From Lachnospiraceae bacterium (GTDB lineage: Bacteria; Bacillota; Clostridia; Lachnospirales; Lachnospiraceae), in contig JAGBMJ010000097.1 in NCBI GenBank assembly GCA_017634975.1, forward strand, positions 1 through 58,430: 58,430 nucleotides of DNA, read 5' to 3'. The notes below the pieces were generated by a model. The model had not been told where the DNA came from. It was given only the letters and a program-made list of their open reading frames with translations, and made no database searches. Position numbers and translations under genes: made by a program. This document shows, piece by piece, positions 5,761 to 56,332 of the stretch. Every line of letters starts with the position of its first letter. Position 1 is the stretch's first letter.

Positions 5761-5781
5761 TTGTTCTTTGGGGAGTTAAGT

Positions 5782-13376: not shown

Positions 13377-15109
13377 ATGGCAAAGTCGAATATTGACCAA
13401 AAGGCAGTAAAAACACTATTTTCTGAAAAAATGCAGATTTTTTAATACCTGATTACCAGCGCCCATACGCATGGGAAGAAAAAGAATGTCAAACATTGTG
13501 GGATGACTTATTCTCATTTGCATTTCCGGATGAAAACTGTGAAAAGTTTGATTCTAATGAGGAATACTTCCTTGGCCCTATGGTTACTTACATAAATGAA
13601 GGTAAGGCAGAGATAATAGATGGTCAACAGAGATTGACTACGCTAATGCTCTTGCTTCGTGCTTTTTACGAACGGTATGGATCTATGAAGAATGATAAGG
13701 CAAAGAAGACAGCCAGATTGATAGAACAATGCATTTGGAAAACAGATGAGTTTGGAGATTCCGATAAAACAGCGCTTAAAATAAACTCGGAAGTTGCAAC
13801 GGACAATGAAAAAGAGGAATTCCTATCAATACTTACAAATGGTGATGCAAGTGGAAAGAAAAGTCACTACGCAGAAAACTATAGATTTTTTCAGAAGAAA
13901 ATAAATGATTTCTTAAATGCATACCCAGACGAGTTTTCTTTTCTGCCTATTCGTATACTGAATAATTGTGTATTACTTGTGATAGAGGCTGAATCTCAGG
14001 ATACTGCCCTTAGGATATTTTCAACATTGAACGATAGAGGAAAGCCTTTGTCTGATGCGGATATTTTTAAGGCGCAGTTCTATAAGTATTTCACAGGGCT
14101 TGGAAAAAAGGATGATTTCATCAATAAATGGAAAGAGTTAGAAGCCTTGTGTAATGAGATATTTCATCCGATTCAAGGTACGCCAATGGATGAAATATTT
14201 ACTCGCTACATGTACTATGAAAGGGCGAAACAGGGAATAAAGAGTTCTACAACAGAAGCTCTTAGAAAATTTTATGAGAAAGAATCGTATAAGCTATTAA
14301 AGAATGAAGAAACTTTTGACAGCTTGATAGACCTTGCTAATTTTTGGAGTGACATAGAGAAACAAGATGAAGAGCGTTTTACCGAGAGGGTACTCAGAAA
14401 ACTGTTTGTTTTGAATTATGCTCCAAACGGAATGTGGACGTATTTCCTGTCGGTATATTATATGTCTAATAAGGATAGTGCAGGAAACCTTGCCGAGGAT
14501 GCTTTGTGTATTTTCTTAGATAGAATCATAGCTTTTATATGGACTTATGCAGTTACAAATCCCGGTGTCAATGCATTAAGAACACCTGTCTATGCAGAAA
14601 TGATAAATATCGTTAATCATCAGCCGGTTCTTTTTAGTGATTTTAAGTTTGAAGGTGATAGTGTAAGAAGCGCTTTTGTAAATTATTCTTTTAGCAACAA
14701 TAGAGCCATAACAAAATCAATGTTGACATGGTGGGCTTATAGACAGGATGAACAGGCGCTTTTTCCGCTCGATACGGTGATAGAGATTGAACATATATAC
14801 GCAAGGAATAGACAAGACAAAGAAAAGGGGTTAAAGAACAGGAAGAATCTGGAGGCACTCGGAAATAAAGCTTTGTTGGAAAAACGAATTAATATAAGAG
14901 CTTCTGATTACAGATTTAGCGATAAAATAAAGTATTATAAAGGGTATGAGAATGCTCGTAAGCAGAAGAAAGAAGGTACTAAGAATATAGAATTACTGCA
15001 GTTGGCTAATTCTAAAGCAGACTTCAACGAAAATGACATTGAAAATCGCAACAAAAGTATCATAGACACATTTATTAAATATCTTGGCGAGATGGATCTT
15101 ACAAAATAA
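13377..15109 (+). pseudogene. DUF262-DUF1524 (GmrSD-like) gene with a frameshift near its start
   Basis: The gene starts at ATG 13377 after AGAGGAG and encodes MAKSNIDQKAVKTLFSEKMQIF before a stop. Shifting by one base within the run of six T (13438-13443) continues FLIPDYQRPYAWEEKECQ, the family's (V/I)PxYQRxYxW motif. The rest is intact: EIIDGQQRLTTL is the DUF262 nucleotide-binding DGQQR motif, and IEIEHIYARNRQ...NLEALGN is the HNH-like DUF1524 motif. One extra T would restore a ~577-residue protein. GmrSD-type proteins cut modified phage DNA. Loss of function, sequencing error or a slippage switch are all possible. Confidence 0.8.
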
Positions 15110-15165
15110 TCAAATATGATATGTATAAAAGGTAGCATGTAATTTAACGAAAACATGTAGCTTTT

Positions 15166-15184
15166 TGTAACGGTACACGGTTCC
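15166..15184 (+). repeat. 19-bp copy of the GGTACACGGTTCC element
   Basis: TGTAACGGTACACGGTTCC is identical to 6936-6954. It sits immediately before the topoisomerase-type zinc-finger gene, where a promoter or ribosome site would be expected. Confidence 0.7.
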
Positions 15185-15191
15185 TATATGT

Positions 15192-15431
15192 ATGAACCTT
15201 GGAACTTGCAAATATTGTGCTCATAATGATCCGGAAGTAAAGAAACGGAAAGAACTACAAATACAGAAGGATAAACAAATAGCAAGAATGCGGATGGATG
15301 AAGAAACAAAGAATAGTATGTTGAAATGCCCTAAGTGTGGAGGGACTTTGGCAAAAAGAAAAGGTCCGTATGGAGAGTTCTTTGGATGTGACAATTTTCC
15401 GAAATGCAGATATACAAAGAAAGGGATATAA
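15192..15431 (+). CDS. Small topoisomerase-type zinc-ribbon protein (possibly truncated)
   Basis: 79 residues. The C-terminal half, [29 protein letters not shown], is the C4 zinc finger found at the C-terminus of DNA topoisomerase I. The N-terminal half has another Cys pair (CKYC) and a charged helix. No ribosome site is evident and a dispersed repeat ends 7 nt before the ATG, so this may be the preserved 3' end of a longer gene such as a nuclease or helicase with a Topo-type finger. It could alternatively be a genuine small DNA-binding protein. Confidence 0.55.
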
Positions 15432-15483
15432 GAGAGCAATTAAGTCTTGGAAATTAATGGAAACAAGATAAGAAAATGGGTAT

Positions 15484-16665
15484 ATGGAAAAGAAAAGTCT
15501 TAATGAGTTTGGATACCATTTGAAGGTAGAAGAAAAATATTATAATTCTCTTGATATAGAAGGTTTTTCACATATGATGAAAGATCCGTCTTACTGTTAT
15601 AAGTTTTACTGGCTAGAGGCATTGGTAAAACTGGTATCGGAAGGAGTTGATGAAACCACTTTTGATACAGTGATTAATGAGATGATCTGTAATGCTTGGT
15701 ACTCTGTACGGGAGTTTCATATTCACTTATCTGGCCTGCAAGCGGATGGTCAGGTAAGAGATGGTTTGGAAAGAGCCGTTCTTCGACTTGCAGAATTGAG
15801 TGATATTTCTGCTAATGCATCAAAGGTGGAAATAAGAAATGCGATAAAAAAATATGATAACGATTTGAAATATGCAAAAGAGCAGTTGACGAAAATGGTA
15901 CCATATCGTGCTCTGGCTGGTTTCTTTTCAAAAGTGGATTTACCTATTGAGTGGGAAAGCGCAAGGAGAATGATTTCTTATATTCAAAGGATAAATGCAG
16001 AGTTCGTTCTTCTTCCGTATACTTTGGGGGAATCTGCTAAATTAAAAAAGGAAATCTATTTCCAGAAGGACTGGATAGAAATGATTCGGGATAATACGGT
16101 GTCTATTCTGGGATGGATCCAGTATGAAAAAGTAAAGTGGCTACAAAACAATAATCCTGAGGTACCGGGGCTTGTTTATAAACTGGCACCGATGGATGAA
16201 AAGATGAGAAAACTAAACAAAGTACGGAAACTATGGGAGGGAATTATAGATCTGTGTGAAGTAAAGGATGTATTTACCGGGGATGCGGTAGTACCAAAGC
16301 AGTATGAAGTGAACCATTTTATTCCCTGGTCATTTGTGATGAATGACGAGTTATGGAACTTAATGCCGATGGATTCATCTCTAAATAGTGTTAAAAGTAA
16401 TCGGCTGCCTAAATGGGATCCTTTTTTTACAAGATTCGCGGAAAATCAGTTTCTGCTTTATGGTTATATTCATTCAAAACCGAGAATTCGAAAACTATAC
16501 GAGGCTTGTTTTCGGGATAATCTGCATTCTATCTGGGCTTGGCAGGAGTTATATCGTAAAGGTAATACACAGGAAGAGTTTTACAATATTCTACAGAAGA
16601 ATATGCAACCTGTATACGAATCAGCCAGGCGACAGGGATATGAAATCTGGAATAAAAGCGTGTAG
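15484..16665 (+). CDS. HNH endonuclease domain protein
   Basis: 393 residues. Near residue 278 a HNH nuclease motif appears: YEVNHFIPWSFVMNDELWNL followed by MPMDSSLNSVKSNRLP, with the conserved His, Asn-Leu-x-P, Asn and Lys. The N-terminal two thirds are helical and not assigned to a family. The gene is AT-rich like its neighbours. Its position between a GmrSD-like gene and a possible toxin-antitoxin-like pair suggests a restriction or anti-phage role; no partner helicase or methylase is present. The short spacer upstream has a weak ribosome site (AAGATAAGAAAATGG). Confidence 0.75.
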   Translation: MEKKSLNEFGYHLKVEEKYYNSLDIEGFSHMMKDPSYCYKFYWLEALVKLVSEGVDETTFDTVINEMICNAWYSVREFHIHLSGLQADGQVRDGLERAVLRLAELSDISANASKVEIRNAIKKYDNDLKYAKEQLTKMVPYRALAGFFSKVDLPIEWESARRMISYIQRINAEFVLLPYTLGESAKLKKEIYFQKDWIEMIRDNTVSILGWIQYEKVKWLQNNNPEVPGLVYKLAPMDEKMRKLNKVRKLWEGIIDLCEVKDVFTGDAVVPKQYEVNHFIPWSFVMNDELWNLMPMDSSLNSVKSNRLPKWDPFFTRFAENQFLLYGYIHSKPRIRKLYEACFRDNLHSIWAWQELYRKGNTQEEFYNILQKNMQPVYESARRQGYEIWNKSV

Positions 16666-28082: not shown

Positions 28083-29384
28083 ATGTTTTGTCAACTGTTT
28101 GGGAACTACCTGCAGGAACGGGAAGTTATCAATGAATTTGATTATCGCCAACTGATCAAAGAGCAGATGTCCGTACGTGTAAAGCTGGGCACCATTGCCG
28201 TGATGGACGGGATCCTGACCGAAGCACAGGTCGAGAAGATCAATGAGCTGCAAAAGACGCAGGACCGTCGTTTCGGTGATATCGCCGTGGAGCAGGGGCT
28301 GCTGACGGATGAACAGGTCGGAGGACTTTTGAAGAAGCAGGGAAATGCTTACCTGCAGTTTGTACAGCTTTTGATGGATATGACAGATATCTCCAAGGAA
28401 AAACTGGAAGAATATCTTGAGGATTTCCGGACAAAGATCGGTTTTGCACCGGATGAGATGGAAAAACTGAAAAAAGATGATCTGGATGAGCTGCTGCCGA
28501 TGTTTGTATATTCTTCCAAGCCGTACGTGCTGGATATCGCCGGGCTGCTCACCAGAAATATCACGCGTTTTGTATCCCGTGATTTCTTTATTGAAAAAGC
28601 GAGAAAGAGCAAGGAAATGAATTACACGCATCTGGCCTGCCAGAAGATCGCCGGTGATCATACTGTCTATATTGCGATCGCGGAGGCAGAGGAGCAGGGC
28701 GCCTTTTTGCAGGTGGCATCTTCGTTCTCCAAGCAGGATATGGATGCGGTCTATGATGATGCTTACGATGCGGTATGTGAGTTTATCAATGTGAACAGCG
28801 GGCTGTTGGCCAGTGCATTGAGTGAAAAGGCGGTCAATATCGATATGGATCCGCCGCAGGGCTTTGCGGGGCAGGTGGCCAAAGGTGACTTTTATGTGCT
28901 GCCGGTCGTTCTGGAGGGACGACGGCTGGAACTCATCATCGCTGTGGACAGTGATTTTGAACCCGGGCAGGAGCCTTTGAAGCTGGGCAGTGTGACCACC
29001 GAAGAGGATACCTCGGAAGGCGAAGGTGCGAGAGTGCTGATCGTGGACGATTCCAGAATGTCCAGACAGATGCTGCGCAACATCCTCGAAAAAGACGGCT
29101 ACCGTGTGGCCATGGAGGCGAGCAACGGTTTGGAAGGTCTTGCAGCCTATATGAAGTGCAAGCCGGACCTGGTGACGCTGGATATCACGATGCCGGAGAT
29201 GGACGGTCTGGAGGCTCTGGAGAAGATTCTGGCTTATGATCCGAAGGCAAATGCGATCATGATCACGGCGGCAGGGCAGCAGGACAAGCTGATGCGTGCG
29301 CTGCGTGCCGGAGCGAAGTATTTTATCAGCAAGCCTTTTAATGAGGATGAAATACTTGCAAATATCAGGAAGGTTCTGGCGTAA
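28083..29384 (+). CDS. Response regulator with N-terminal helical and CheX-like domains
   Basis: 433 residues. Residues ~35-85 repeat LGTIAVMDGILTEAQVEKINELQ and RRFGDIAVEQGLLTDEQVGGLL, resembling the MshEN/GspE-N helical repeat that can bind cyclic-di-GMP. Residues ~170-300 resemble the CheX phosphatase fold (FVSRDFFIEKARKS...). The C-terminal receiver from ~315 has VLIVDDSRMSRQML, phosphorylatable Asp in LVTLDITMPEMDG, Thr in IMITAAG and Lys in FISKPF. This combination suggests a chemotaxis or motility signal protein linked to the flagellar genes. The kinase is not in the window. Confidence 0.75.
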   Translation: MFCQLFGNYLQEREVINEFDYRQLIKEQMSVRVKLGTIAVMDGILTEAQVEKINELQKTQDRRFGDIAVEQGLLTDEQVGGLLKKQGNAYLQFVQLLMDMTDISKEKLEEYLEDFRTKIGFAPDEMEKLKKDDLDELLPMFVYSSKPYVLDIAGLLTRNITRFVSRDFFIEKARKSKEMNYTHLACQKIAGDHTVYIAIAEAEEQGAFLQVASSFSKQDMDAVYDDAYDAVCEFINVNSGLLASALSEKAVNIDMDPPQGFAGQVAKGDFYVLPVVLEGRRLELIIAVDSDFEPGQEPLKLGSVTTEEDTSEGEGARVLIVDDSRMSRQMLRNILEKDGYRVAMEASNGLEGLAAYMKCKPDLVTLDITMPEMDGLEALEKILAYDPKANAIMITAAGQQDKLMRALRAGAKYFISKPFNEDEILANIRKVLA

Positions 29385-29433: not shown

Positions 29434-32400
29434 ATGTATTTGTTTAAAGAATGGAAGACGGAAAAGAATGCACGGGGCTGGCTCTTATGGGCATTAGCCT
29501 CGGCATTTATGTTTACGGTCTTTGCACCGTTAGATGCTTATTTTGCCAATGAGAGTGAATTCTGGTTTCGACTGTCGCAGCTGCTGCCGGTGGTGGTGGT
29601 GTGTTTTGCGGCATCTTTTTTGATCCTGTTTGCCATAGCGGAGGTGCTGTACCGCTGCATCGGGCAGAAAAAGTCCGGCTGGATCGTCTTTACTTTCCTT
29701 TTGAATACGCTGCTGTATTTTTATGTGCAGGGGAATTTTATTCCAAGGCACTATGGCGTGCTGAACGGGGTGTCGATCGATTTTGACCGGCATCCGGTGT
29801 ATGCCTGGGCCAGTATCGTGCTGATCGCGGGCGCTGTCGTGGCTGCGGTCTTCAGCATTTTGGTGATCAAAGAAAAGATATATGCGTTCGGACGTTTTGT
29901 ATGTGCGGTACTGCTCGGATTACAGCTGGTCACGCTGTGTTTTTCCTTTTATAAAAAACATATTATGAATGCGCCGGTGCGTTCGGAGGTCGTGGTGACA
30001 AACCGGGATCTGCTTACTCTGGGGCAGGAGGAGAACATCATCTTTTTTATCCTGGATACCTTTGACGGGGAGGATATGGAAGATCTGTTCTTCCGGGAGC
30101 ACTATAATGGGTATTATCAGGAGATGTTTGAGGATTTTACCTATTATCAGGATACGACGTCTATGTATCCGACGACCAAGGGGGCACTGCCGTATCTGCT
30201 GACCGGCGTGCCGTATCTGAATCAGGAGACTTATGCAGATTATATCCGGCGGGCCTACGGGGAGACCGATCTGTATGACGTACTGGCGCAGGAAGGCATA
30301 CAGGTAAGCGTGTATACGGATAACAGTGATTTTCTGGATCCGGATTGCGCAAAATATACCAATGTGGAACATGGGCGGTACCGGATCGGAAGCAACCTGG
30401 AATTTGCGAAGGAGATGTATTCGCTGGTGGCATTTAACTATATGCCGCACCAGCTGAAACGCTTTTTCTTCGTGGATACGGAAGATTTCGGAGCGCTGCA
30501 GGCAACGGCAGAGGGGGATTCCGCTTTTTCCTGGGATGTACAGGATTTTTATAACAAACTGACGACGGAGCGGCTGCAGAAAGGAGATGCGGCAAAGTGG
30601 ATGCACGTGTATCATCTGGCGGGGATTCATCTTCCGTATACCTTTGACGGAAATCTGCATTCGGAAGCCGACCGGATCTACAACGTGATCGATGAAGCGG
30701 AGGGAAACTGCACAATGGTCGGGGAGTATCTGGACCAGCTCCGGGAGCTTGGCCTGTATGATAGTGCAACGATCATTGTTACGGCAGATCACGGAAATTA
30801 CGGACACGGTCAGTATCCGATCTTTTTTGTGAAGAACGCAGGCGAACATCATCCGTTTAAGATCTCGTCTGCAAAGAATTCGCATGCCAATATGATGACG
30901 CTGTTAAAGGAGGTGGCGCAGGGAAAGACGTTTGATGAGGAAGCCGTGCGTGCCTGCAATCCGGAGGAGAGCCCGCGGAGGTTTTATTATTACAGCTGGG
31001 ATGATGGATGGGAGGATCTGTACCTGCCGGAGATCGCCGAGATGGAGCAGGACGGGATCGCGATCGAGGATTCGGCTCTGAAGGAGACCGGCGTGCGGTA
31101 TGCTCCTGCGGGGCAGAAGGAACGGGCTCCTGTGGAAGGACCGTTATCGCGTCTGCTGAAGAAGTGCATGGATTGGTGCTACCGGTTCTGCGGCAACTAC
31201 GGTCTGGCAATCCTTTTGTTTACACTGTTTTCCAAGCTGGTATTGCTGCCGTTATCCATCTGGACACACATCAATTCGATCACTATGATCCGGATACAGC
31301 CGCAGATCAATTTCCTGAAGGCGCGTTACTACGGACAGAAGGATAAGGTGGGCGAGGAGCAGACCAGGATCTTTAAGGAAGAAGGCTATCACCCGCTGCT
31401 GTCAACGATCCCGATGATCGTACAGCTGGTGCTGCTGATCGGCGTGGTGGCAGCGATCCGTGCCGGGATCGAGGATCCGACGATCAATATGAATTGGGGC
31501 GCGGTCAATCTGGGGCAGGTGCCTTCGCAGACGGGACTGCGTCTGCTGTGGTCACCGCTGGCGGCAGCCGCATCGGCGTGGCTGATGAGCTACACACAGA
31601 ATAAGAGCAATGTACTGCAGGCAGAACAGAGCAAGTGGAATCAGTACGGGATGATGGCCTTTTCGGTAGGATTATCCCTGTATCTGGGCTGGTTCGTGCC
31701 GGTGGGGACTGCATTGTACTGGGTAGCGTCCAACCTGCTGTCCATCGTACAGATGTATGCGCTGAACGCGGTGATCCCACCAAAGAAATATGTGGATTAC
31801 CAGCAGCTGGAAGAGAGCCGTAAGGCGCTGGCCGGTCTGCAGACCGTGGGCGGCAGGAAGAAGGAAGGCTATTTTTCCGCCAACCGCAAGCGGGAACGGA
31901 AGGACTATAAGCGCTTCTTCTCCGTGCTGAACAAGCATCTGGTCTTCTATTCCGAGGGCAGCGGTTTTTATAAGTATTTTAAGGGCTATATCGAGTATAT
32001 CCTGAAGTACACGGATCTGACGATCCACTATATCACCAGCGATCCGAAGGATGCGATCTTTGCTAAGGCTTCGGAAGAACCGAAACTCCGTGCCTATTAC
32101 ATCGGTGAGAACAAACTGATCACGCTGATGATGAAGCTGGAAGCAGACGTGGTGGTAATGACCATGCCGGATCTGGAACATTTTCATATCAAGCGCAGTT
32201 ATCTGCGGCAGGATATGAAGTATATCTATGTGCAGCACAATATCGGAAGCAATAACCTGACCATGCGCAAGATGTGTATGGAATACTTTGACATCGTCTT
32301 CTGCGCGGATAAGCTGCAGAAGGAAGAAGAGCAGGCAATCGAAGAGAAGTATGACCTGCGGAAAAAAGTGCTGGCGGAGGTGGGCTACCCTCTGCTGGAT

Positions 32401-33042
32401 GATATGCGTGCTGCTTATCGCGCAGGCACGCATGAGAAGCATACGAGAAAGCAGATCCTGATCGCACCGTCCTGGCAGGCGGACAATATCGTGGACAGCT
32501 GTTTGGAGGAGATGCTTGCGGAACTGTCAAGGGGGGATTACGATGTGACCGTGCGTCCGCATCCGCAGGAAGTGCGTCTGAAAGCGGAGTATATGCAGCA
32601 GCTGAAGGAAAAGTACGAGTCGGAACACGTGCACATCCAGACCGACTTTTCTTCCAATAATACAGTCATGGAGGCGGATCTGCTGATCACGGACTGGTCC
32701 GGCATCGCCTGGGAGTACGCGTTTACGACGGGGCGGCCGGTACTGTATGTTGACACGCCGATGAAGATCATGAATGAAGATTACAAAGAGATCGATATTG
32801 AACCGTTTGATATCCGGCTGCGGGATATGATCGGCAAACGGCTGAACCCGGATCAGATGAAAGAGATCCGGGCGGTGGCCGAAGATCTGCTGGCACATTC
32901 CGCGGAGTATCAGGAACATACGGAGGCACTGGTGCAGGAGTACATCTGTCATCCGGATCACGCGGCAGCCGTAGGCGGTGACGTGATCGTATCGGAAGTG
33001 CTCGCACAGATCGCACGCAGAAAGGAGGCACAGGCGGGATGA
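29434..33042 (+). CDS. Tripartite fusion: sulfatase/LtaS-like, YidC-like insertase, TagF-like glycerophosphotransferase
   Basis: 1202 residues. Residues ~10-175 hold 4-5 membrane spans. Residues ~200-500 are sulfatase/alkaline-phosphatase-like: FFILDTFDGED (metal Asp), YPTTKGALPYLLTG (candidate Thr nucleophile) and VTADHGNYGHG (Asp-His). Residues ~570-790 are YidC/Oxa1-like: NYGLAILLFTLFSKLVLLPL, IQPQINFLKARYYGQKDK, GYHPLLSTIPMIVQL and PVGTALYWVASNLLS. Residues ~820-1185 are CDP-glycerol glycerophosphotransferase-like, with TVRPHPQEV and LLITDWSGIAWEYAF. The TagF-type part is cytoplasmic, the phosphatase part outside. The three pieces in one chain suggest a teichoic-acid-like polymer machine; the product is inferred. 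It starts an operon with the next two genes. Confidence 0.85.
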   Translation: MYLFKEWKTEKNARGWLLWALASAFMFTVFAPLDAYFANESEFWFRLSQLLPVVVVCFAASFLILFAIAEVLYRCIGQKKSGWIVFTFLLNTLLYFYVQGNFIPRHYGVLNGVSIDFDRHPVYAWASIVLIAGAVVAAVFSILVIKEKIYAFGRFVCAVLLGLQLVTLCFSFYKKHIMNAPVRSEVVVTNRDLLTLGQEENIIFFILDTFDGEDMEDLFFREHYNGYYQEMFEDFTYYQDTTSMYPTTKGALPYLLTGVPYLNQETYADYIRRAYGETDLYDVLAQEGIQVSVYTDNSDFLDPDCAKYTNVEHGRYRIGSNLEFAKEMYSLVAFNYMPHQLKRFFFVDTEDFGALQATAEGDSAFSWDVQDFYNKLTTERLQKGDAAKWMHVYHLAGIHLPYTFDGNLHSEADRIYNVIDEAEGNCTMVGEYLDQLRELGLYDSATIIVTADHGNYGHGQYPIFFVKNAGEHHPFKISSAKNSHANMMTLLKEVAQGKTFDEEAVRACNPEESPRRFYYYSWDDGWEDLYLPEIAEMEQDGIAIEDSALKETGVRYAPAGQKERAPVEGPLSRLLKKCMDWCYRFCGNYGLAILLFTLFSKLVLLPLSIWTHINSITMIRIQPQINFLKARYYGQKDKVGEEQTRIFKEEGYHPLLSTIPMIVQLVLLIGVVAAIRAGIEDPTINMNWGAVNLGQVPSQTGLRLLWSPLAAAASAWLMSYTQNKSNVLQAEQSKWNQYGMMAFSVGLSLYLGWFVPVGTALYWVASNLLSIVQMYALNAVIPPKKYVDYQQLEESRKALAGLQTVGGRKKEGYFSANRKRERKDYKRFFSVLNKHLVFYSEGSGFYKYFKGYIEYILKYTDLTIHYITSDPKDAIFAKASEEPKLRAYYIGENKLITLMMKLEADVVVMTMPDLEHFHIKRSYLRQDMKYIYVQHNIGSNNLTMRKMCMEYFDIVFCADKLQKEEEQAIEEKYDLRKKVLAEVGYPLLDDMRAAYRAGTHEKHTRKQILIAPSWQADNIVDSCLEEMLAELSRGDYDVTVRPHPQEVRLKAEYMQQLKEKYESEHVHIQTDFSSNNTVMEADLLITDWSGIAWEYAFTTGRPVLYVDTPMKIMNEDYKEIDIEPFDIRLRDMIGKRLNPDQMKEIRAVAEDLLAHSAEYQEHTEALVQEYICHPDHAAAVGGDVIVSEVLAQIARRKEAQAG

Positions 33043-33314
33043 GAAGAGCTTTGAAGTATATCGTGTTTACGGCCTGGTGCTTCGGTGCGGCAATGCTTTT
33101 GTTCGGCGTGACGGCGTATGCTTACATCGATCCGTCGGTCATGACTTACGTGATCCAGGCAGTGGCCGGTGTGGTGATCGCGCTGGGAGCGGTTTTCGGG
33201 ATCTATTTCCGCAAGATGAAGAAGGCGCTGTTTGCCTTACTGCATATCGATGAGAACCGGGGCAAAGAAGTGGAGAGCGATGATGTCGTCTACCGGAAAC
33301 CGCAAGAATTCTGA
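33039..33314 (+). CDS. Small membrane protein of the YIDPS/YIDPG type
   Basis: 91 residues. It has an N-terminal hydrophobic helix, then AYAYIDPSVMTYVIQAVAGVVIALGAVFGIYFRKMK, a YIDP(S/G) signature followed by a second hydrophobic span and a basic cytoplasmic stretch. Such small 'YIDPG' proteins are common in exopolysaccharide and wall-polymer clusters. Its ATG overlaps the upstream stop (33039-33042), so it is tightly coupled to the fusion protein and probably interacts with it. Confidence 0.7.
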   Translation: MRRALKYIVFTAWCFGAAMLLFGVTAYAYIDPSVMTYVIQAVAGVVIALGAVFGIYFRKMKKALFALLHIDENRGKEVESDDVVYRKPQEF

Positions 33315-33879
33315 AAAAAAGGAACGATCGGAAAGAGCGCCGGAAAGAAGCGGCGGAAAGCGAAAAATATCAAAACGAAGCACCCCCGCGAGGGGAGAGA
33401 CACGGAAACCGCATCCGGACCGGCAGGGTAAGGCGCTGAAAAAAAGTGTGATCCGCTTTGTCCAAAAGAATCGTGTATGGCTGCTCTGTGCGGCAGCAGC
33501 ATTTTTGGCGGCGTGGCTGGTCTCGGCTTTTTTTGTACAGCTGGTACTCATTCGGGATGCCTCGATGGAGCCGGCGTATCACAACGGGCAGATCGTGGCG
33601 GTGAGCAAGCTGAGGCGGGAGTATCAGCGCGGGGATGTGATCGTCTTTGATGCGCCGCAGCTGGGCTGCCGTCTGGTAAAGCGGATCGCACACGTGCCGG
33701 GGGATCATTTATCGCCGGAGGAGGCAGCGATGTACGGCCGCGGGACGCTGGCCGGCTATACCCTTCCGGAAGGAGCTTATCTTGTGCTGGGGGACAATGC
33801 GGATGAGAGTGTGGACAGCCGGGATGAGAGAGTGGGTGTGGTAAGGAGTGAGAAGATTGTCGGCGTGTTGCTGCGGTGA
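33280..33879 (+). CDS. Signal peptidase I
   Basis: About 199 residues. After a basic N-terminal tail (RKNSEKKERSERAPERSGGK) and one membrane span (WLLCAAAAFLAAWLVSAFF), the catalytic Ser lies in IRDASMEPAYHNG and Lys in GCRLVKRIAHVPGD. The later motif YLVLGDNADESVDSRDERVG is the conserved SPase I box. It cleaves secreted proteins outside the membrane. ATG 33280 follows GGAGAGCG and overlaps the upstream gene by 35 nt. It is coupled to the polymer-machine genes, so it may process their products. A long inverted repeat overlaps the stop. Confidence 0.88.
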   Translation: MMSSTGNRKNSEKKERSERAPERSGGKRKISKRSTPARGETRKPHPDRQGKALKKSVIRFVQKNRVWLLCAAAAFLAAWLVSAFFVQLVLIRDASMEPAYHNGQIVAVSKLRREYQRGDVIVFDAPQLGCRLVKRIAHVPGDHLSPEEAAMYGRGTLAGYTLPEGAYLVLGDNADESVDSRDERVGVVRSEKIVGVLLR

Positions 33880-37089: not shown

Positions 37090-39849
37090 GTGTTATACCG
37101 TTTAGTGATATCACCAATTGAATATCTGATCGAAGTAGTATTTACCATAATGAATGGCTTCTTCGGGCATGAGGGATATGCGATCATCGCCGTGAGTATG
37201 ACGATCAGCACCCTGGTGCTGCCACTGTACCTGCGGGCGGATGCGATCCAGGAGGCGGAGCAGAAGAAGCAGAAGGCGATGGAACGCTGGCTCGCCCATA
37301 TCAGGAAGACGTTTACGGGCGATGAGCGTTATATGATGACGAATGCCTACTATGCGGAGATGGATTATAAACCGCTGTATGCATTGAAGGGACTGATCCC
37401 GTTATTATTACAGATCCCGTTCTTTATTGCGGCGTATCATTTTCTGTCGAACTTAAAATGCCTGCAGGGAACAAGTTTCTGGCTGATCGCGGATCTTGGG
37501 GCGGAAGACAGGATGCTGAAGCTCGGGGGGCTTGCGATCAATGTGCTGCCGGTATTGATGACCGGTATCAACCTGATCAGCAGCGTGATCTATACAAGGG
37601 ATGCGACGCTGAAACAGAAGATCCAGCCGGTGGTGCTGGCGCTGGTTTTTCTGGTACTTTTGTATCACAGCCCTGCGGGACTCGTGCTGTACTGGACGAT
37701 GAACAACCTGTACTCCATGTGCAAAAACGTGGTGATGAAGATCGTAAAACATCCGGAGCGGCTGGGCATGATCGGACCGGTGGTGATCGCGGCATTGTTT
37801 CTGGTATTTCTGCTGGCGACAGGCAAGCTGCAGGAGCGGATCGCCTGGAAGGATCATGAAAGTCTGTTCCTATACGGACTGATCGTGCTGGCGCTGCTGG
37901 CAGCACCGACGAAGGTGTGGCTTGGTAAGACGGGTATTTTCGAAAAACGATCTTACGGCAATCAGCAGGGGGCGGAAAAAGCGGAAGGTACGAAATCGGC
38001 GGAACGGAAACCAGGCAGGGGACAGACCACGACAGGAAAAAACGTTCACATTACCGTGATCCTTCTGGAACTGGCGCTGGCACTATTGCTGGGACTGGTG
38101 ATCCCGCTGCTGGTACTATCGGTGGCACCGATGGACTTTCTCGTGATCGACCGGACAACGGATCCGTTGCATTATGCGTATGCGGCGTTTGCCGTAGCAT
38201 CCGGAGTGTTCCTGGTATGGGGCAGCCTGATCTACGCGATGGCGGAAGAAAAGGGACGCTTTGCTTACGGGCGCGTGCTGCTGATCCTTTTGTTCATCGC
38301 TTTGGTGGATATGCTCGGTTTCAAGGCAGTGGTCGGTAATGTATCGACCATGCTGGAGTTTGAAAAGATGCCGCATTTTGCGTTGCTTCCGAAAGCAATC
38401 AATCTGGCAGCTCTAGGTGCAGCGGCGGTCGCCGGATGGCTGCTCTGGGACAAAGGCGGCAAAGTGCGGGATGGGCTGGCGGCGGTGGTCTGCCTGACTT
38501 TTACTGCGATGGCGGTTATGAACATACAGGCGACAAAGGCGGGGATCCATGAGGTGGATGATGGCGCAGAGGTGGATTATGTGCTGCCGCTGTCAACGGA
38601 AGGCCGGAACGTGATCGTGCTGATGATGGATCGTGCCATTTCGGCTTATGTACCGTTTCTCTTTGAGGAAAAGCCGGAATTGTATGATATGTATGCCGGG
38701 TTTACCTATTATCCGAACACGCTGTCCTTTGGACGCGGAACCGGAAGCGGCGGACCGGCCCTGTACGGAGGATATGAATATACAACGGAACATCTGCCGG
38801 TGGCAGATGAAGACCGTCACCGGAAGCACATCGAAGCACTGCTGGTGCAGCCGATCCTTTTTGGGGAGAACGGATTTGAAGTGACGGTTACCGATCCGGG
38901 CTTTTGGGCAGCTTCGGCTACGGATTATTCCATATACGATCCGTATCCGTACATTTCGGCATACAGCCTGGAGCAGAACCTGCCGGTCGGCTATGATCTG
39001 GAAGGGATGAAGGCGGCACGCGAGAGGAACTTTTTCTTTTACAGTATCTACCGTATCGCTCCGGCTATGCTGCAGGATGAGATCTATGGCAAGGGACGTT
39101 TCCTTGCGGCGGATCATACATCCTTTGTGGGAGAGGGCGAATTCCGAAGAGGATACACGGTGCTAAAAAATCTGCCGGAACTGACACGGATCGAAGAGGG
39201 GGATCGTGATCACTTCCTGGCCATCGGTAATAACACGACCCATGCGGAATCGATGCTGGCACTGCCGGATTATACTGATGAGCGGGAAGCGGATTATACG
39301 GGGATCGATATCGCGGCGGATAAGCACGCCGGAAATCTGACACTCCATTTCGACCGAGATAACGAGGGCTTAAGTGTGGGGCATTACCACAGCAATATGG
39401 CGGCATTTCTGAAGCTTGGGGCGTGGTTTGACTATCTGCGGGAACAGGGTGTGTTTGACAATACCCGAATCATCATCGTATCGGACCATGGCTACGGTCT
39501 GCCCCAGCGGGAGGACATGCTGCTGCCGGGCGGAGTAAATGTGGAGGCGGTCAATCCGGTGCTGCTGGTCAAGGATTTTGACAGTAACGGAGCGTTTACC
39601 GTGGATACGCAGTTTATGACCAATGCCGACACGACAGTACTGGCCACGCAGGGGATCGTTGCAGATCCGGTCAACCCGTTTACCGGAAACGCGATGACGT
39701 TGGAGCCCAAGGAAGGTGGCGTGGACTTTATGTGGCAGCCGCTGGAGTGGGATTTTTACGGGGATCCGTATGCCGGAGACAAGTGGTATCACGTGAGTGA
39801 TGATATCCTGGATCCGGAGAAGTGGGTGCCGATCGAGGCACTGCGGTAA
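37090..39849 (+). CDS. YidC-like insertase fused to a sulfatase-like phosphotransferase
   Basis: 919 residues, starting at GTG 37090; the upstream frame closes at 37066. Residues ~1-225 form a YidC/Oxa1 domain (YAIIAVSMTISTLVLPLYLRAD, LKGLIPLLLQIPFFIAAYHFLSN, YHSPAGLVLYWTMNNLYSM). Residues ~240-490 hold further membrane spans. Residues ~505-870 are sulfatase-like: NVIVLMMDRAISAYVPFLFE (metal Asp), TGSGGPALYGGYEY (candidate nucleophile region, less certain) and RIIIVSDHGYGLPQ (Asp-His). It shares two domains with the 1202-residue protein ~4 kb upstream but in the opposite order. A wall- or membrane-polymer role is inferred. Confidence 0.8.
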   Translation: MLYRLVISPIEYLIEVVFTIMNGFFGHEGYAIIAVSMTISTLVLPLYLRADAIQEAEQKKQKAMERWLAHIRKTFTGDERYMMTNAYYAEMDYKPLYALKGLIPLLLQIPFFIAAYHFLSNLKCLQGTSFWLIADLGAEDRMLKLGGLAINVLPVLMTGINLISSVIYTRDATLKQKIQPVVLALVFLVLLYHSPAGLVLYWTMNNLYSMCKNVVMKIVKHPERLGMIGPVVIAALFLVFLLATGKLQERIAWKDHESLFLYGLIVLALLAAPTKVWLGKTGIFEKRSYGNQQGAEKAEGTKSAERKPGRGQTTTGKNVHITVILLELALALLLGLVIPLLVLSVAPMDFLVIDRTTDPLHYAYAAFAVASGVFLVWGSLIYAMAEEKGRFAYGRVLLILLFIALVDMLGFKAVVGNVSTMLEFEKMPHFALLPKAINLAALGAAAVAGWLLWDKGGKVRDGLAAVVCLTFTAMAVMNIQATKAGIHEVDDGAEVDYVLPLSTEGRNVIVLMMDRAISAYVPFLFEEKPELYDMYAGFTYYPNTLSFGRGTGSGGPALYGGYEYTTEHLPVADEDRHRKHIEALLVQPILFGENGFEVTVTDPGFWAASATDYSIYDPYPYISAYSLEQNLPVGYDLEGMKAARERNFFFYSIYRIAPAMLQDEIYGKGRFLAADHTSFVGEGEFRRGYTVLKNLPELTRIEEGDRDHFLAIGNNTTHAESMLALPDYTDEREADYTGIDIAADKHAGNLTLHFDRDNEGLSVGHYHSNMAAFLKLGAWFDYLREQGVFDNTRIIIVSDHGYGLPQREDMLLPGGVNVEAVNPVLLVKDFDSNGAFTVDTQFMTNADTTVLATQGIVADPVNPFTGNAMTLEPKEGGVDFMWQPLEWDFYGDPYAGDKWYHVSDDILDPEKWVPIEALR

Positions 39850-45521: not shown

Positions 45522-47288
45522 ATGGGTTTGTTTTCCAATCTTTACATAGGAACCTCGGGACTGCAGTCCAGCCAGGAGGCACTGAACATGGTGGCGCATA
45601 ACGTCACCAATGCCGACACCGAGGGCTATACCAGACAGCAGGTATCCTACGGGACCAGAGAATACCATCGTCTGTCCAATTCGTCGATCGGTGTGTCGAT
45701 GAAGCAGACCGGTCTGGGCGTGTACATCACGGAAGTACGTCAGGTGCGTGACCGTTTTGTGGATGCTTCGTACCGGAACCAGGCAGGACGCCAGGGCTTC
45801 TACAACGAATCCTATTCGGCGATCGAGGAGATCCAGGGGATCTTCGGCGAGCTGGACGGACCGACGTTTGAAAACTCCATGAACGATCTGCAGACGGCAC
45901 TGGCGGAACTGGCCAAGGAGCCTACCAGTGAAGTCAAGCAGTCGATGGCCGTACAGTATGCAAACTCCTTTGTGGAAGCGGCACAGAACGTGTACCGCGA
46001 TCTTTCCAATTATCAGGATAAACTGAACCAGCGCATTCAGGGCGCGGTGGATGAGATCAATGCTCTGGGGCACGAGATCTACACGCTGAACCAGAAGATC
46101 CGCGGGATCGCTACCGGCGGTGTGGAGAATCCCAATGATCTGTATGACCAGAGAAACCTGGCGCTGGATAAGCTGGGGGCGATGATCAATATCAGCTATC
46201 GTGAGGACAAATTCGGAAACGTGCTGGTGAAAGCGGAAAACCATGACTTCGTATCTATGAACGGCGTGAATGAGATGGCGTGCCAGGCAGAAGACGATGA
46301 GACGGTCGGAGAACCGGGCTTCTACAACGTGTTCTGGACAGACGGTGCTACCGTGGAAGCACGCGATGAGCATGGGCAGATCGTCAGGTATGTACAGGAT
46401 ACCGTACGCAACAATCCGCATACCGATCCGCCGACCGTGGCGACCGGAGCTGTATATAACTGGAATCTGCCGATCTCGTCCAAGCTGGATACGGATGTGG
46501 GGACCTTAAAGGGGCTGCTGCTGGCACGCGGCAACCATCGCGGAAACTTTACGGATCTGCAGGATGAAGAGACTTACGCCACTGTATCCGATTCCATCCT
46601 GATGAACGTGATGGCGGAATTTGACGGACTGGTACACAATGCGGTAACCGCGATGAACAACGTGCTGAAAGAGGCGGCGGAAGCCGTGGATCCCGCTTTT
46701 GGATATCTGCGGGACAAGAACGGAAACGTCATCCAGCTGTTTGAGCGTATCTCCTGTGAGGAGTATCTGGAAGACGGAACCCACGTGGATGAGGATCTGC
46801 CGAGAACGGACGTGAATCCGCTTAACCAGAAAAAGACATACCACCCGGGAGACAATACTACCTGGTTTACCACAGCCAATCTGGTGGTGAACGAGGATCT
46901 GCGGCAGCACCCGACCCATCTGGGACTGAAACTGCCGGATGCATCGGAAGACGGCGGAAACGGCACGGCAGAGAAGCTGCGGGATGTGTTCCAAAATGAG
47001 GATTATCTGCTGAACCCGACCTTGGCAAACAAGACTTCGCTGCGGCGCTATTATGCAAACTTTGTAGCACAGATCGCCAACTCCGGGAATGTCTACCAGA
47101 ACCTGAAAGACAATCAGGATCTGACAGTGGAGGCCGTGGAAGCCAACCGGCAGGGTTCCATCGGTGTGGCGACCGATGAAGAGCTGGCCAATATGGTGAA
47201 GTTCCAGAATGCCTACAATGCCAGCAGCCGTTTTATCAATGTGATCGACGAGTGCATCGAGCACATCATCAATACACTTGGAACGTAA
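45522..47288 (+). CDS. flgK: Flagellar hook-associated protein FlgK (first copy)
   Basis: 588 residues. SNLYIGTSGLQSSQEALNMVAHNVTNADTEGYTRQQV is the FlgK/rod-hook N-terminal motif, and the C-terminal ANMVKFQNAYNASSRFINVIDE is the flagellar-protein coiled-coil end. It forms the hook-filament junction. It starts 21 nt after flgN. A larger FlgK paralogue follows 26 nt downstream. Confidence 0.93.
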   Translation: MGLFSNLYIGTSGLQSSQEALNMVAHNVTNADTEGYTRQQVSYGTREYHRLSNSSIGVSMKQTGLGVYITEVRQVRDRFVDASYRNQAGRQGFYNESYSAIEEIQGIFGELDGPTFENSMNDLQTALAELAKEPTSEVKQSMAVQYANSFVEAAQNVYRDLSNYQDKLNQRIQGAVDEINALGHEIYTLNQKIRGIATGGVENPNDLYDQRNLALDKLGAMINISYREDKFGNVLVKAENHDFVSMNGVNEMACQAEDDETVGEPGFYNVFWTDGATVEARDEHGQIVRYVQDTVRNNPHTDPPTVATGAVYNWNLPISSKLDTDVGTLKGLLLARGNHRGNFTDLQDEETYATVSDSILMNVMAEFDGLVHNAVTAMNNVLKEAAEAVDPAFGYLRDKNGNVIQLFERISCEEYLEDGTHVDEDLPRTDVNPLNQKKTYHPGDNTTWFTTANLVVNEDLRQHPTHLGLKLPDASEDGGNGTAEKLRDVFQNEDYLLNPTLANKTSLRRYYANFVAQIANSGNVYQNLKDNQDLTVEAVEANRQGSIGVATDEELANMVKFQNAYNASSRFINVIDECIEHIINTLGT

Positions 47289-47314: not shown

Positions 47315-49507
47315 ATGTCATCCACTTTTATGGGACTCAATACCGCATATACCGGTCTGCAGGCAGCCAATGCAGCCTTGAATACGACTGCGAACAATAT
47401 CGCAAACATCGAGACCAAGGGCTACAGCCGGCAGCAGGTGACCACACAGGCTGCGGAAGCCATCCGTATGTTTACTACCTACGGCTGCGTGGGGGCAGGT
47501 GTGGAGACGATCGCGATCGAGCGGATCCGGGATACTTTTTATGACAATAAGTACTGGGGAAACCAGACACAGCTGGGGCAGTACGAAGTGCAGAAGTATT
47601 ATATGGAATGCGTCGAGGATTATTATAAAGACGATGACATGATCAAGGGTTTCACCACGATCTTCAACGAGTATGACAATGCGATGCAGGAGCTGGCGAA
47701 GAACCCGGATGATACGAAGTACCGGCAGCAGATGATCGGTGCGGCAGGAAATCTGACTACCTATTTCCGGGATACCTATAGCAATATGCAGAAACTGCAG
47801 GACGATGTAAACCAGGAGATCAAGGTGAATATCGACCGGATCAATTCCATCGTGGAAGAGGTCGCTTCCCTAAACAAGCAGGTAAATGTCATCGAGATGA
47901 ACTCCGGTGCGGTAGCGAATGAGCTGCGTGACCAGCGTGATATCCTGATCGATGAGCTGGCGGAGATCGCGGATGTGGAAGTGACCGAAGTGCCGGTGAT
48001 CGATTATACCGATGTGGGGCGCGATACCGGCGGTACGCGTTATCTGGTGAAGGTGTGCGGGGAGCAGCTGGTGGACGGCAACAGCTATAAGACCCTGACC
48101 TGCGTGCCGCGGGAAAGTACGGTGAAGGTGAACCAGACAGATATCCAGGGGCTGTTTGATATCTATATCTCCGGAGAGAGTGACTGGACGGCAGACGATT
48201 ACCGGCGTAAGGGGGATGCGGTGCAGGTGTACAGTGCGACAGCCGGCGGCAAACTGGCCGGACTGTTCCAGATGCGCGACGGGAATAACGGCGAGTATTT
48301 CCAGGGGAGTGTAGCCGGCACCGGGATGACGACGGATACCGACGGCAAGAGCGCGCAGACGGTGACGATCCGCACAACGGAGAACCACCTGAAGGACTTG
48401 ACCAAGCTGAACCTGACGCAGAGCGGCGGCATCATCCAGATCGCAAATCAGAATTATTACTTCAAGGAATGGACCTACAGCTATACGGAAGGATCTCCGT
48501 ATGCGGAATATACCATCACGCTGGACAATGAGAGAAATCTGGATCTGAACGGAAATGTACGCTTCGTGCCGGACAGTGCGAGGGATAAAGAAGCGGCCAT
48601 CGGCAGTGCCGTGCATTACCAAGGGGTTCCGTACTATCTGTCCCAGATGAATGAGTGGGTACGTCTGTATGCACAGGCGGCGAATGATATCGTACAGGGT
48701 GGCAAGCTCGATGACGGAAGCGACGGACATGTGATGTTTACCGGCGAGCATCCGGTCAGCGGAAGGGATCTGGTACGCAGCAAGACCGACCGTGTGGACG
48801 GGACGGATGCAAGTGGTAAAGACGTGCGCTATACGATCGCTGATTTTACCGGAAGCACGCGGACCATGGAACTGGATGGTACGTCGAACTTTAAGCTGGG
48901 TGTGAAGAACGCGACGTCCGGCGGATCGATCCTGACAGATGAGACGGGGACGAAGTACGAGGTGACGGCGCTGTCCGGCAATACCTATACGCTGACCAGT
49001 CAGAAAGACGGCAGCACGAAAACGGTGACCGTGAACGGCACAAACGGTGTGATCAATACCGGTGACAGCTACTATATGACACAGGGCGGCAATTTCACCG
49101 TGAACTCCGAGCTGGAGGATCCGGATCACGGAGCGGAATTTCTGGCAACCCGCAGCGAGCTGAAACAGGAAAGCAGCGGTGTGGAAAAGAATGATATCGT
49201 GAAGACTCTCCTGAAGCTGCGGACGGATAAGAGTATGATGAGCTTCCGCGGCTGCGCGGCGGATCAGTATCTGGTGAATATGCTGGGAGATGTGGCGCTG
49301 AACTCGCAGAGGTCGCAGTTGTTTACCGAAAACTATACTTATATGCAGAAGAACATTCAGAACCAGCGCTACAGTGTGAGTGGCGTGGATAACGACGAGG
49401 AAGCGGTGAACCTGAGCAAATTCCAGCAGCAGTACAACATCGCGTCCAAGATGATTCAGGTGCTGAAGGAAGTGTATGACAGACTGATCCTGCAGACAGG
49501 GGTGTAA
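47315..49507 (+). CDS. flgK: Flagellar hook-associated protein FlgK (second, longer copy)
   Basis: 730 residues. The N-terminus MGLNTAYTGLQAANAALNTTANNIANIETKGYSRQQV and the C-terminal NLSKFQQQYNIASKMIQVLKEVYDRL match FlgK. About 140 residues more than the first copy come from the central domain, around ADFTGSTRTMELDGTSNFKLGVKNATSGGSI, a beta-rich insert probably exposed on the surface. Two tandem FlgK genes may form a mixed junction or one may be specialised. It sits 10 nt before flgL in the same operon. Confidence 0.9.
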   Translation: MSSTFMGLNTAYTGLQAANAALNTTANNIANIETKGYSRQQVTTQAAEAIRMFTTYGCVGAGVETIAIERIRDTFYDNKYWGNQTQLGQYEVQKYYMECVEDYYKDDDMIKGFTTIFNEYDNAMQELAKNPDDTKYRQQMIGAAGNLTTYFRDTYSNMQKLQDDVNQEIKVNIDRINSIVEEVASLNKQVNVIEMNSGAVANELRDQRDILIDELAEIADVEVTEVPVIDYTDVGRDTGGTRYLVKVCGEQLVDGNSYKTLTCVPRESTVKVNQTDIQGLFDIYISGESDWTADDYRRKGDAVQVYSATAGGKLAGLFQMRDGNNGEYFQGSVAGTGMTTDTDGKSAQTVTIRTTENHLKDLTKLNLTQSGGIIQIANQNYYFKEWTYSYTEGSPYAEYTITLDNERNLDLNGNVRFVPDSARDKEAAIGSAVHYQGVPYYLSQMNEWVRLYAQAANDIVQGGKLDDGSDGHVMFTGEHPVSGRDLVRSKTDRVDGTDASGKDVRYTIADFTGSTRTMELDGTSNFKLGVKNATSGGSILTDETGTKYEVTALSGNTYTLTSQKDGSTKTVTVNGTNGVINTGDSYYMTQGGNFTVNSELEDPDHGAEFLATRSELKQESSGVEKNDIVKTLLKLRTDKSMMSFRGCAADQYLVNMLGDVALNSQRSQLFTENYTYMQKNIQNQRYSVSGVDNDEEAVNLSKFQQQYNIASKMIQVLKEVYDRLILQTGV

Positions 49508-53625: not shown

Positions 53626-53669
53626 TAAAGTTATCTCTTATATTGTCCGATATAAGAGATAACTTATAT
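53626..53669. repeat. Right copy of the 45-bp hairpin repeat, overlapping a sigma-28-like promoter
   Basis: AAGTTATCTCTTATAT (53628-53643) pairs perfectly with ATATAAGAGATAACTT (53650-53665). The same stretch reads TAAA (53626-53629), 16 nt, TCCGATAT (53646-53653), close to the sigma-D consensus, and lies upstream of flaG. The left copy (52556-52600) lacks the CCGATAT part. Confidence 0.75.
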
Positions 53670-53731
53670 TAGCAACATATCTCCAAGAGGGGGATCGTGA
53701 ACAGGAATATAATCACACGGAGGTGATCAGT

Positions 53732-54178
53732 ATGGCAGGAATAGAACCTATTAACAGTGCAATGAGCTATACCATGGCGCAGCCGGTAGCCAAAGCTGCC
53801 GAAGCGCAGAATGCCACGACGGAGTTCAGGGAAGGACAGCCGATGGAAACCAACGCACCTCAGGTGGATGCGAAAGTCATTTCCATGGCGAAAACACAGA
53901 AGGAAGAGGACAGCGAAGGTAAGGATAACGGCGAAAGTAAACAGCAGCAGGCACCGATGAATGATGAGTCCATTAAGCAGGCAATGAAGGAGCTGGCGAA
54001 GAAGCAGGCAAACTTTACGTCTGAGTTCGGAATTCATGAGAAAACACACCGCGTGACGGTGAAGATCGTGGATAAAAAGACCAAAGAAGTGATCAAGGAA
54101 CTGCCGCCGGAGAAGACCCTGGATATGATCGCCAAGATGTGGGAGTATGCAGGACTGATCGTTGATGAGAAGCGATAA
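53732..54178 (+). CDS. flaG: FlaG family flagellar protein
   Basis: 148 residues. A variable Gln/Glu/Lys-rich N-terminal part is followed by the conserved FlaG C-terminal HEKTHRVTVKIVDKKTKEVIKELPPEKTLDMIAKMWEYAGLIVDEKR. FlaG affects filament length or cap function. The ATG at 53732 follows the strong GGAGGTGATC site. It is the first gene of the flaG-fliD-fliS-fliT unit after the GNAT insert. Confidence 0.88.
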   Translation: MAGIEPINSAMSYTMAQPVAKAAEAQNATTEFREGQPMETNAPQVDAKVISMAKTQKEEDSEGKDNGESKQQQAPMNDESIKQAMKELAKKQANFTSEFGIHEKTHRVTVKIVDKKTKEVIKELPPEKTLDMIAKMWEYAGLIVDEKR

Positions 54179-54217
54179 GGAGATTGCTTTGGAAAAGAAT
54201 ACAAGGAGGTAAATGGT

Positions 54218-55849
54218 ATGGGATCTGATCTGATCAGGATGACGGGTATGATCTCCGGTATGGATACCGAGAGTGTCATTAAAGCGTATACATCCAAAAC
54301 GGAAGCAAAACTGAAAAAAGCGCGTAACAGCAAAACGTTGAATACGTGGAAGCAGGATGCGTGGAAAGATCTGAATAATAAGATCTATTCTTTTTATTCC
54401 AAGACGCTTTCCACAAACCGTTTTTCCGGTGCGTATAAAAAGATGAAGACCACTACGTCCAACAGTGCGTTGTCGGTTACTGCCGGCGACAATGCCGTGA
54501 CCGGCGCACAGACGGCGCAGATCAAATCGGCAGCAAGTTCGGCGTATATGACGGGAAGCAAAGTAACCGGAGCAGGTCAGGAGGCGTTGAAGGCGGATGA
54601 TACACTGAGTAAACTGGGAATCACGGAAGAGACGACTCTGACATTGACCAAGGGTGATGGTACACCTACGAGCATTACGGTATCCGGCGAGACCACAATG
54701 AATGACTTTGTGAAACAGCTGAAAGATGCCGGCTTGAACGCGAACTTTGACGAGAGTAACCAGCGTCTGTTCATCAGTGCCAAATCGACAGGTGCGGACA
54801 GTGATTTCAATTTTTCTGCCGACTATACTTCCGATGCCGGCATGACGGCGCTGTCCAAATTGGGACTGGCCACCCAGAAAGATTTTGAAAAATATGCTGC
54901 GGCACATTCGGTGACCGAGACTCCGGAAGAAGGAGATCCGGTGACCAGACAGATGACCACGTCGGAGGCCTTGGCGAAGTTTGACAAGACCGCTTCTACG
55001 ATGGCCAGCAAGATTGACGGCACCAATGCGAAGCTGATCCTGAATGGCGCGGAATTTGAATCCCAGACGAATACGTTTAAGATCAACGGGAGTACGTATA
55101 CCATTAATCATATGCCAAGCGATCCGAACGAGAACATCTCGGTGAATACGGATACGGACTATGATGGTGTGTATGATGTGGTCAAGGGTATCCTGAAAGA
55201 GTTTAATTCTCTTATAAATGAGATGAGCAAGCTCTATAATGCCGACTCTGCAAAAGGCTATGATCCGCTGACCGATGAGCAGAAGGAAGCGATGGGGGAT
55301 AAGGAAGTAGAGGAATGGGAGAAGAAGATCAAAGATTCCCTGCTTCGTAACGATGAGAATCTTTCCGGCGTGATGGAAGCGCTCACGAGCGTTACACGAG
55401 ATGGCATCAGTGTGGGCGGCAAGACGATGTATCTGTCGGATTTCGGCATTTCTACGCAGGAGTATTTCTCGGCGGATAAGAATGAACGGAATGCTTTGCA
55501 TATTGATGGTGATCCGGATGATGATGTATCTGCCGGCAATACGGACAAATTGAAAGCGATGATCGCGTCGGATCCGGAAGCGGTGACCAGCTTCTTCCAG
55601 CAGTTTGCCAGCAAGATGTATGACAAACTGTATGATAAGATGGGATCCTCTTCGCTCAGCAGTATTTATAAGGTGTATAATGATAAGCAGCTTGCTACAG
55701 AATCCAGCAACTGGGATTCCAAGATCCTGGAACTGGAGGATAAGATCACGGCGATCGAGGATAAGTGGTACAGCAAGTTCAGTAAGATGGAGAGCAAACT
55801 GGCGAAGATGCAGAAGAATCAGACAGCAGTGAGCGGATTCTTCGGATGA
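54218..55849 (+). CDS. fliD: Flagellar filament cap protein FliD
   Basis: 543 residues. The N-terminal DLIRMTGMISGMDTESVIKAYTSKTEAKLKKAR and the conserved NLVKKLNS-like helical parts are the FliD N-domain, and the C-terminal LELEDKITAIEDKWYSKFSKMESKLAKMQKNQTAVSGFF is the cap coiled-coil. The central beta domains span ~70-420. It sits at the filament tip and guides flagellin folding. An AAGGAGGTAAATGGT site precedes the ATG. Confidence 0.93.
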   Translation: MGSDLIRMTGMISGMDTESVIKAYTSKTEAKLKKARNSKTLNTWKQDAWKDLNNKIYSFYSKTLSTNRFSGAYKKMKTTTSNSALSVTAGDNAVTGAQTAQIKSAASSAYMTGSKVTGAGQEALKADDTLSKLGITEETTLTLTKGDGTPTSITVSGETTMNDFVKQLKDAGLNANFDESNQRLFISAKSTGADSDFNFSADYTSDAGMTALSKLGLATQKDFEKYAAAHSVTETPEEGDPVTRQMTTSEALAKFDKTASTMASKIDGTNAKLILNGAEFESQTNTFKINGSTYTINHMPSDPNENISVNTDTDYDGVYDVVKGILKEFNSLINEMSKLYNADSAKGYDPLTDEQKEAMGDKEVEEWEKKIKDSLLRNDENLSGVMEALTSVTRDGISVGGKTMYLSDFGISTQEYFSADKNERNALHIDGDPDDDVSAGNTDKLKAMIASDPEAVTSFFQQFASKMYDKLYDKMGSSSLSSIYKVYNDKQLATESSNWDSKILELEDKITAIEDKWYSKFSKMESKLAKMQKNQTAVSGFFG

Positions 55850-55936
55850 TGACGTCAGAGTAACCAATGTCAATAAGGCAGGTATATGTAAAGATATATC
55901 TGCCTTATAATATAAGGGAACGGGGAGAAGGTAAAA

Positions 55937-56320: not shown

Positions 56321-56332
56321 ATATTGGAAAAC

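Follow-up and report, generated by a model that had tools for sequence, protein, structure and literature searches.

A single-chain fusion of LtaS-like, YidC and TagF-like domains in Lachnospiraceae with a possible role in decorating the cell surface

The window analyzed here, a stretch of 58,430 nucleotides from the genome of a gut or rumen bacterium of the Lachnospiraceae, encodes a protein in which an LtaS-like domain, a YidC-type membrane domain and a TagF-like transferase domain follow one another in one chain (Table 1). In related bacteria the same parts are joined in different ways, and because of this, the strongest sign in our analysis, we consider the three to act together: that the triad is kept together is well supported by sequence comparison, and its members probably work jointly. 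The parts belong to known families; a search of the open-licence literature by titles and the beginnings of abstracts returned no description of their combination. It is often obscure by which route head groups and lipid-linked building blocks get through the membrane, and where a YidC domain is naturally fused with putative transferases for either face, lipid crossing can be examined directly with a single purified chain. Found across Lachnospiraceae, other Bacillota and Saccharibacteria, the module may link envelope phosphonates to a delivery machine.

Table 1. Features of the window, with positions counted from its first nucleotide.
Feature	Position	Strand	Remarks
Triple-fusion gene	29434..33042	+	Single 1202-aa frame with membrane helices followed by LtaS-like, YidC and TagF-like domains
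Five predicted membrane helices, residues 11-174	29464..29955	+	Predicted structure: 11-38, 47-77, 80-102, 121-144, 146-174
Outside alkaline-phosphatase-superfamily (LtaS-like) domain, about residues 198-560	30025..31113	+	
D208, likely metal ligand	30055..30057	+	Invariant, 41/41 aligned sequences; putative role
T248, likely nucleophile	30175..30177	+	Invariant, 41/41 aligned sequences
D452-H453, likely metal ligands	30787..30792	+	Invariant, 41/41 aligned sequences; stretch aligns to LtaS
YidC/Oxa1-type membrane domain, residues 589-778	31198..31767	+	60KD_IMP 99.8 bits; fold match YidC 3wo7
K601, groove site	31234..31236	+	Pairs with an Arg of E. coli YidC in the alignment
TagF-like GT-B domain, about residues 830-1198	31921..33027	+	His935 and His1043 invariant
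Type 2 sister system, 919 aa: YidC domain, membrane helices, LtaS-like domain	37090..39849	+	60KD_IMP 82.6 bits
Signal peptidase I gene	33232..33879	+	189 bases downstream of triple fusion
433-aa protein: CheX-like stretch (at Pfam cut-off), C-terminal receiver domain	28083-29384	+	49 bases upstream of triple fusion
Two FlgK-like hook-associated protein genes in tandem	45522-47288, 47315-49507	+	
GmrSD-type restriction gene, then HNH-endonuclease gene	13496-16665	+	
Fic-domain gene	5761-6834		
895-aa open frame without Pfam match	53669-56356	-	Opposite FliD gene

Domain architecture of the triple fusion

The first-pass annotation, made from the letters of the DNA, had read sulfatase, YidC and TagF-type domains in this order, and a Pfam profile scan bears out both the three calls and their order, with the sulfatase, YidC and Glyphos_transf profiles all scoring above their cut-offs. 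The predicted helices are also consistent with the topology proposed there, in which the LtaS-like part would lie outside and the TagF-like part inside, a placement read from the positions of the helices. Note that the predicted model of the full chain has a pTM of 0.43, too low to fix the arrangement of the domains.

The N-terminal part shows the architecture of LtaS, a protein with five membrane helices, in that five helices precede an outside domain of the AlkP fold in the predicted model. By sequence, the LtaS-like profile has LtaS as its best solved match; the fold search did not separate LtaS from sulfatases. Residues D208, T248, D452 and H453 are invariant (n=41); for the Asp-His stretch the match to LtaS comes from an alignment, for the others from position, and T248 is presumably the counterpart of LtaS Thr300. 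The part thus shares with the lipoteichoic acid synthases LtaS and LtaP the five helices and the outside AlkP-superfamily domain, but, unlike them, it is joined to YidC and a TagF-like transferase by fusion or within an operon, and its cargo is probably not glycerol phosphate.

The C-terminal part matches Glyphos_transf with 45.6 bits at a cut-off of 22.1. TagF is the top fold match of this domain at 18% identity, with scores that tie with those of UDP-GlcNAc 2-epimerases, and as a search of the PDB with the TagF-like profile found no TagF chain at E up to 1, we regard it as a remote relative of TagF. Family membership and top fold match are what it has in common with the teichoic acid polymerases TagF and TarL; the low identity, the junction with YidC and nearby donor genes that are mostly not for glycerol set it apart. 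Between the two, the YidC part is recognized by the Pfam and NCBIfam YidC domains and has the YidC fold.

Distribution of the fusion and of its separate parts

An assembly join, the artefact that the first-pass annotation had named as the alternative to a true fusion, is ruled out as the source of the triple fusion by its recurrence in other assemblies. Ten of the 35 genomes of the genus match the query P0001 (E up to 1e-60); the full-length triple fusion is present in this genome as well as in G801, G803 and G817 (94, 93 and 84% identity), and in G800 it is divided between two contig ends. A permuted fusion in the order YidC-TagF-LtaS-like occurs in six genomes of the genus, this one included: another seven long frames are of this kind, two of them in G800 and one each in G000, G803, G807, G817 and G818. 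The dN/dS of the triple fusion is 0.03-0.17 across every stretch, linkers too. Contigs C11 and C102 of this genome gave identical matches, and their YidC fusion was counted once; the two loci concerned (L015 and L019) have identical predicted proteins on both contigs, in agreement with the 7.5% contamination estimate for the assembly. A plasmid search yielded no match.

The YidC-TagF module (type 1) was scanned against named GTDB contigs, and the best 80 of 250 relatives were examined, a sample skewed to the closest relatives. They are mostly Lachnospiraceae, with Erysipelotrichaceae, Oscillospiraceae, other Bacillota and Saccharibacteria, and many stem from animal guts. The LtaS-like part is fused in seven of the 80, six times on the N side and once on the C side; in 39 an LtaS-like gene adjoins YidC-TagF on the same strand within less than 300 bases, in ten it lies elsewhere in the locus, and in 24 none was seen, eight of which have a contig edge less than 1.8 kb away, the split G800 copy (L038) among them. 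In the tree of YidC domains there are three N-side changes of fusion state and one C-side change, four being forced by well-supported branches, where each change may stand for gain or for loss of a fusion and where L022 and L038, cut by contig ends, are labelled unfused. They are most simply read as four fusions. Over 45 loci the distances of the LtaS-like part and those of its partner are correlated (Mantel r 0.74, reached in 0 of 2000 permutations), a value that shared ancestry alone is able to produce.

The module is sporadic: of 398 genomes sampled evenly from the phylum, three match at E up to 1e-80, namely this genome, G546 and, with the TagF-like part alone, G524. Cultured carriers of the YidC-TagF gene exist, for example the strain entered as Lacrimispora saccharolytica An861 (L111). 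Several named loci coincide with numbered genomes of the other samples (L035=G801, L036=G803, L037=G817, L038=G800, L047=G086, L051=G135, L067=G546, L076=G818), so that counts from different samples are not additive. Among L070-L090, 14 loci from Saccharibacteria carry the YidC-TagF module and form one clade of 14 rows (100/99), which suggests transfer of the module between phyla.

A sister system in the same window, termed type 2, has YidC fused to the LtaS-like part. It is found at three more places in this genome and in 18 of 397 genomes of the family (E up to 1e-60). The protein in the window has no Pfam Sulfatase match of its own at E 0.001; its relatives at L018, L029 and L030 score above the Sulfatase cut-off and align with it over their length. 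At 14 of the 24 type-2 loci in the 18 genomes a TagF-like gene adjoins the type-2 gene or lies one gene off (four of these 14 seeded the search model), at one more it lies 1.7 kb away, and at nine, including the one in this window, none was seen. The product of the associated gene carries a YIDPGTGS motif near its start. Both partner parts are homologous between the types, the TagF-like parts over 352 columns (hhalign E 1.6e-38) and the LtaS-like parts over 464 columns (E 3.6e-38), and the YidC domains split into three groups (100/98, 100/99, 94/91): 44 rows of type 1, 12 of type 2 and 14 from housekeeping proteins. An extra short YidC in G013 (L024) is, judged by eye from its sequence, neither type 1 nor type 2.

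Donor genes and the nature of the head group

Genes for activated donors were surveyed in the 80 loci over up to 9 kb per side and counted per domain. CobD-like decarboxylase genes are present in 23 loci, in 21 of them fused to a cytidylyltransferase-like domain. In one such NTP-CobD protein the CobD-like part has 6oux as its best solved match (172.6 bits), and the cytidylyltransferase part matches phosphocholine cytidylyltransferase 1jyk (52.4) about as well as PntC 6pd1 (49.5); the product of these proteins would be CDP-ethanolamine or a close analogue. Phosphonate-synthesis genes occur in 15 loci, with representatives of PEP mutase, phosphonopyruvate decarboxylase and aminoethylphosphonate transaminase above cut-off, and phosphonate-transporter-like genes, whose representatives score below cut-off, in five; all three sets are absent from 37 of the 80 loci.

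The three sets do not overlap in any locus (P 0.0033 for 23 against 15, ancestry ignored). Among the 15 phosphonate loci are L106, at 64 bits, and L098, which is partial and lies 8 kb away; with both dropped, the overlap of the remaining 13 is still 0 (P 0.0078 against 23, and P 0.021 against the 19 strong CobD loci, both ignoring ancestry). A first clustering had placed both donor sets in nine of 14 phosphonate loci, a result that was rejected since it had chained unlike nucleotidyltransferases into a 50-locus cluster. YidC-TagF proteins that are 86 (L041 and L040), 79 and 75% identical adjoin different donor sets. As aminoethylphosphonate and phosphoethanolamine are close in shape, such a swap of the donor set is plausible.

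Across 150 genomes of the family, a PEP mutase above cut-off is found in 6 of the 10 YidC-fusion genomes among the matches listed versus 9 of 140 others (Fisher P 5.9e-5). In this genome, contig C26 carries PEP mutase and phosphonopyruvate decarboxylase genes above cut-off and a nucleotidyltransferase gene at the contig edge; the genome yielded no aminoethylphosphonate transaminase above cut-off, and C26 ends 87 bases beyond the mutase gene. No donor set was recognized within the window, and the NTP-CobD protein, searched in the window's own genome, gave only separate matches of at most 47 bits. Some loci resemble Pnt phosphonyl tailoring, which uses CMP-aminoethylphosphonate (PMC6697681), in having genes for PEP mutase, a cytidylyltransferase and a decarboxylase nearby; that pathway differs in that LicD-like transferases are named for it and in that neither YidC nor sulfatase appears in the main text of that source.

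Taken together, the donor genes suggest a head group of the ethanolamine type (CDP-ethanolamine-like or CMP-aminoethylphosphonate as donor) more than glycerol phosphate. The first-pass annotation had assumed a glycerophosphate cargo, which the same counts support weakly: an ethanolamine-type or phosphonate set is present in 43 of the 80 loci, as against glycerol-3-phosphate cytidylyltransferase-like genes in seven. That the chain makes teichoic acid, with the TagF-like and LtaS-like domains both handling glycerol phosphate, would suit the family names, the rank of LtaS as best solved sequence match and those seven loci, yet we hold it to be very improbable in view of the 43, of the score below the TIGR01518 cut-off for the only cytidylyltransferase-like gene scanned among the seven, and of the failure of the TagF-like profile to find a TagF chain in the PDB.

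The YidC domain and a putative make-flip-transfer chain

The reading that we tentatively prefer is that of a one-chain machine which makes a loaded lipid, flips it and transfers its head group, and so decorates the cell surface. Inside, the TagF-like domain would put a cytidylyl-activated head group, from a CDP-ethanolamine-like donor or CMP-2-aminoethylphosphonate and in this genome probably a phosphonate, on a membrane lipid or a lipid-linked acceptor. The YidC domain, which forms a clade of its own, would then move the loaded lipid to the outer leaflet, and the LtaS-like domain would take the head group onto its threonine and pass it to a surface polymer. In this scheme each catalytic role, the nature of the carrier lipid, its flipping and the final acceptor are our inference. 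MprF works on the most similar principle, a single chain producing a modified lipid inside and then flipping it; we claim no homology, the domains being others and the outside transferase being extra here. We know of no settled biological role for lipid scrambling of the YidC type. A preprint (PMC10491306) describes phospholipid scrambling by E. coli YidC in liposomes, and in vitro by further Oxa1 members, and presents it as a general property of insertases and not as one peculiar to a single clade. The YidC step has indirect support from this activity and from the positive groove residue and the polar positions conserved in type-1 domains. A conjecture of wider scope, possible but held with reserve, is that both fused YidC clades have given up protein insertion and now serve solely as lipid carriers in make-flip-deliver machines for ethanolamine-phosphate or phosphonate head groups, each with a cytidylyl-dependent transferase inside and an AlkP-type transferase outside.

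The fused domain might instead have remained a protein insertase or chaperone, its task being to insert, fold or metal-load either the LtaS-like part or some small, dedicated membrane protein, and a nearby signal peptidase would process the product. K601 is aligned with an arginine that we take to be Arg366 of E. coli YidC, and all 85 type-1 domains have a positive residue at this groove site (Lys in 83, Arg in two), in line with insertion. The residue is not diagnostic, however, since all 12 type-2 domains carry Asn or Ser there and thus lack the positive charge altogether, and seven of 14 housekeeping YidCs carry Tyr. LtaS of S. aureus is cleaved by signal peptidase, a signal peptidase I gene lies less than 7 kb away in 23 of the 80 loci, and the one in the window possibly processes the LtaS-like domain. 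In B. subtilis, LtaS is reported to need Mn and TerC proteins that work with the secretion machinery (PMC10550928). Against these points, the fused domains form clades separate from the housekeeping proteins, a yidC frame of ordinary length is also present in eight of the ten fusion-carrying genomes among the matches listed (this genome and G052 are without), and the TagF-like domain as a fixed partner in type 1 is left unexplained; we consider an insertase function somewhat less likely than flipping. In the assembly of this genome, searches for a yidC frame of ordinary length and for rnpA, which commonly lies next to it, found neither, and the ordinary yidC may lie in an assembly gap. With YidC and Oxa1 insertases the fused part thus shares the Pfam and NCBIfam domain, the fold and the groove lysine, the last not universal in the 14 housekeeping copies, and it differs from them in its separate clade and in the TagF-like domain that follows its last helix.

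Both orders, LtaS-like-YidC-TagF and YidC-TagF-LtaS-like, would be expected if nearness were what counts, that is, if the YidC part were a passive membrane scaffold co-locating the inside and outside transferases while another flippase moved the lipid; the first-pass annotation had named a scaffold beside a conduit as the suggested role. The constraint on the domain renders this unlikely: by the same count method, 26 polar positions are kept in more than 90% of sequences in type 1 (n=85) and 21 in housekeeping YidCs (n=14), so that the constraint on type-1 YidC is similar to that on working YidCs, and the dN/dS of the YidC part, 0.035-0.064, is among the lowest in the chain.

As for the remaining genes of the window, the 895-aa frame is probably a shadow frame. 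Genes similar in size to the one that precedes the triple fusion here lie directly upstream of the fusion in L036 and L037.
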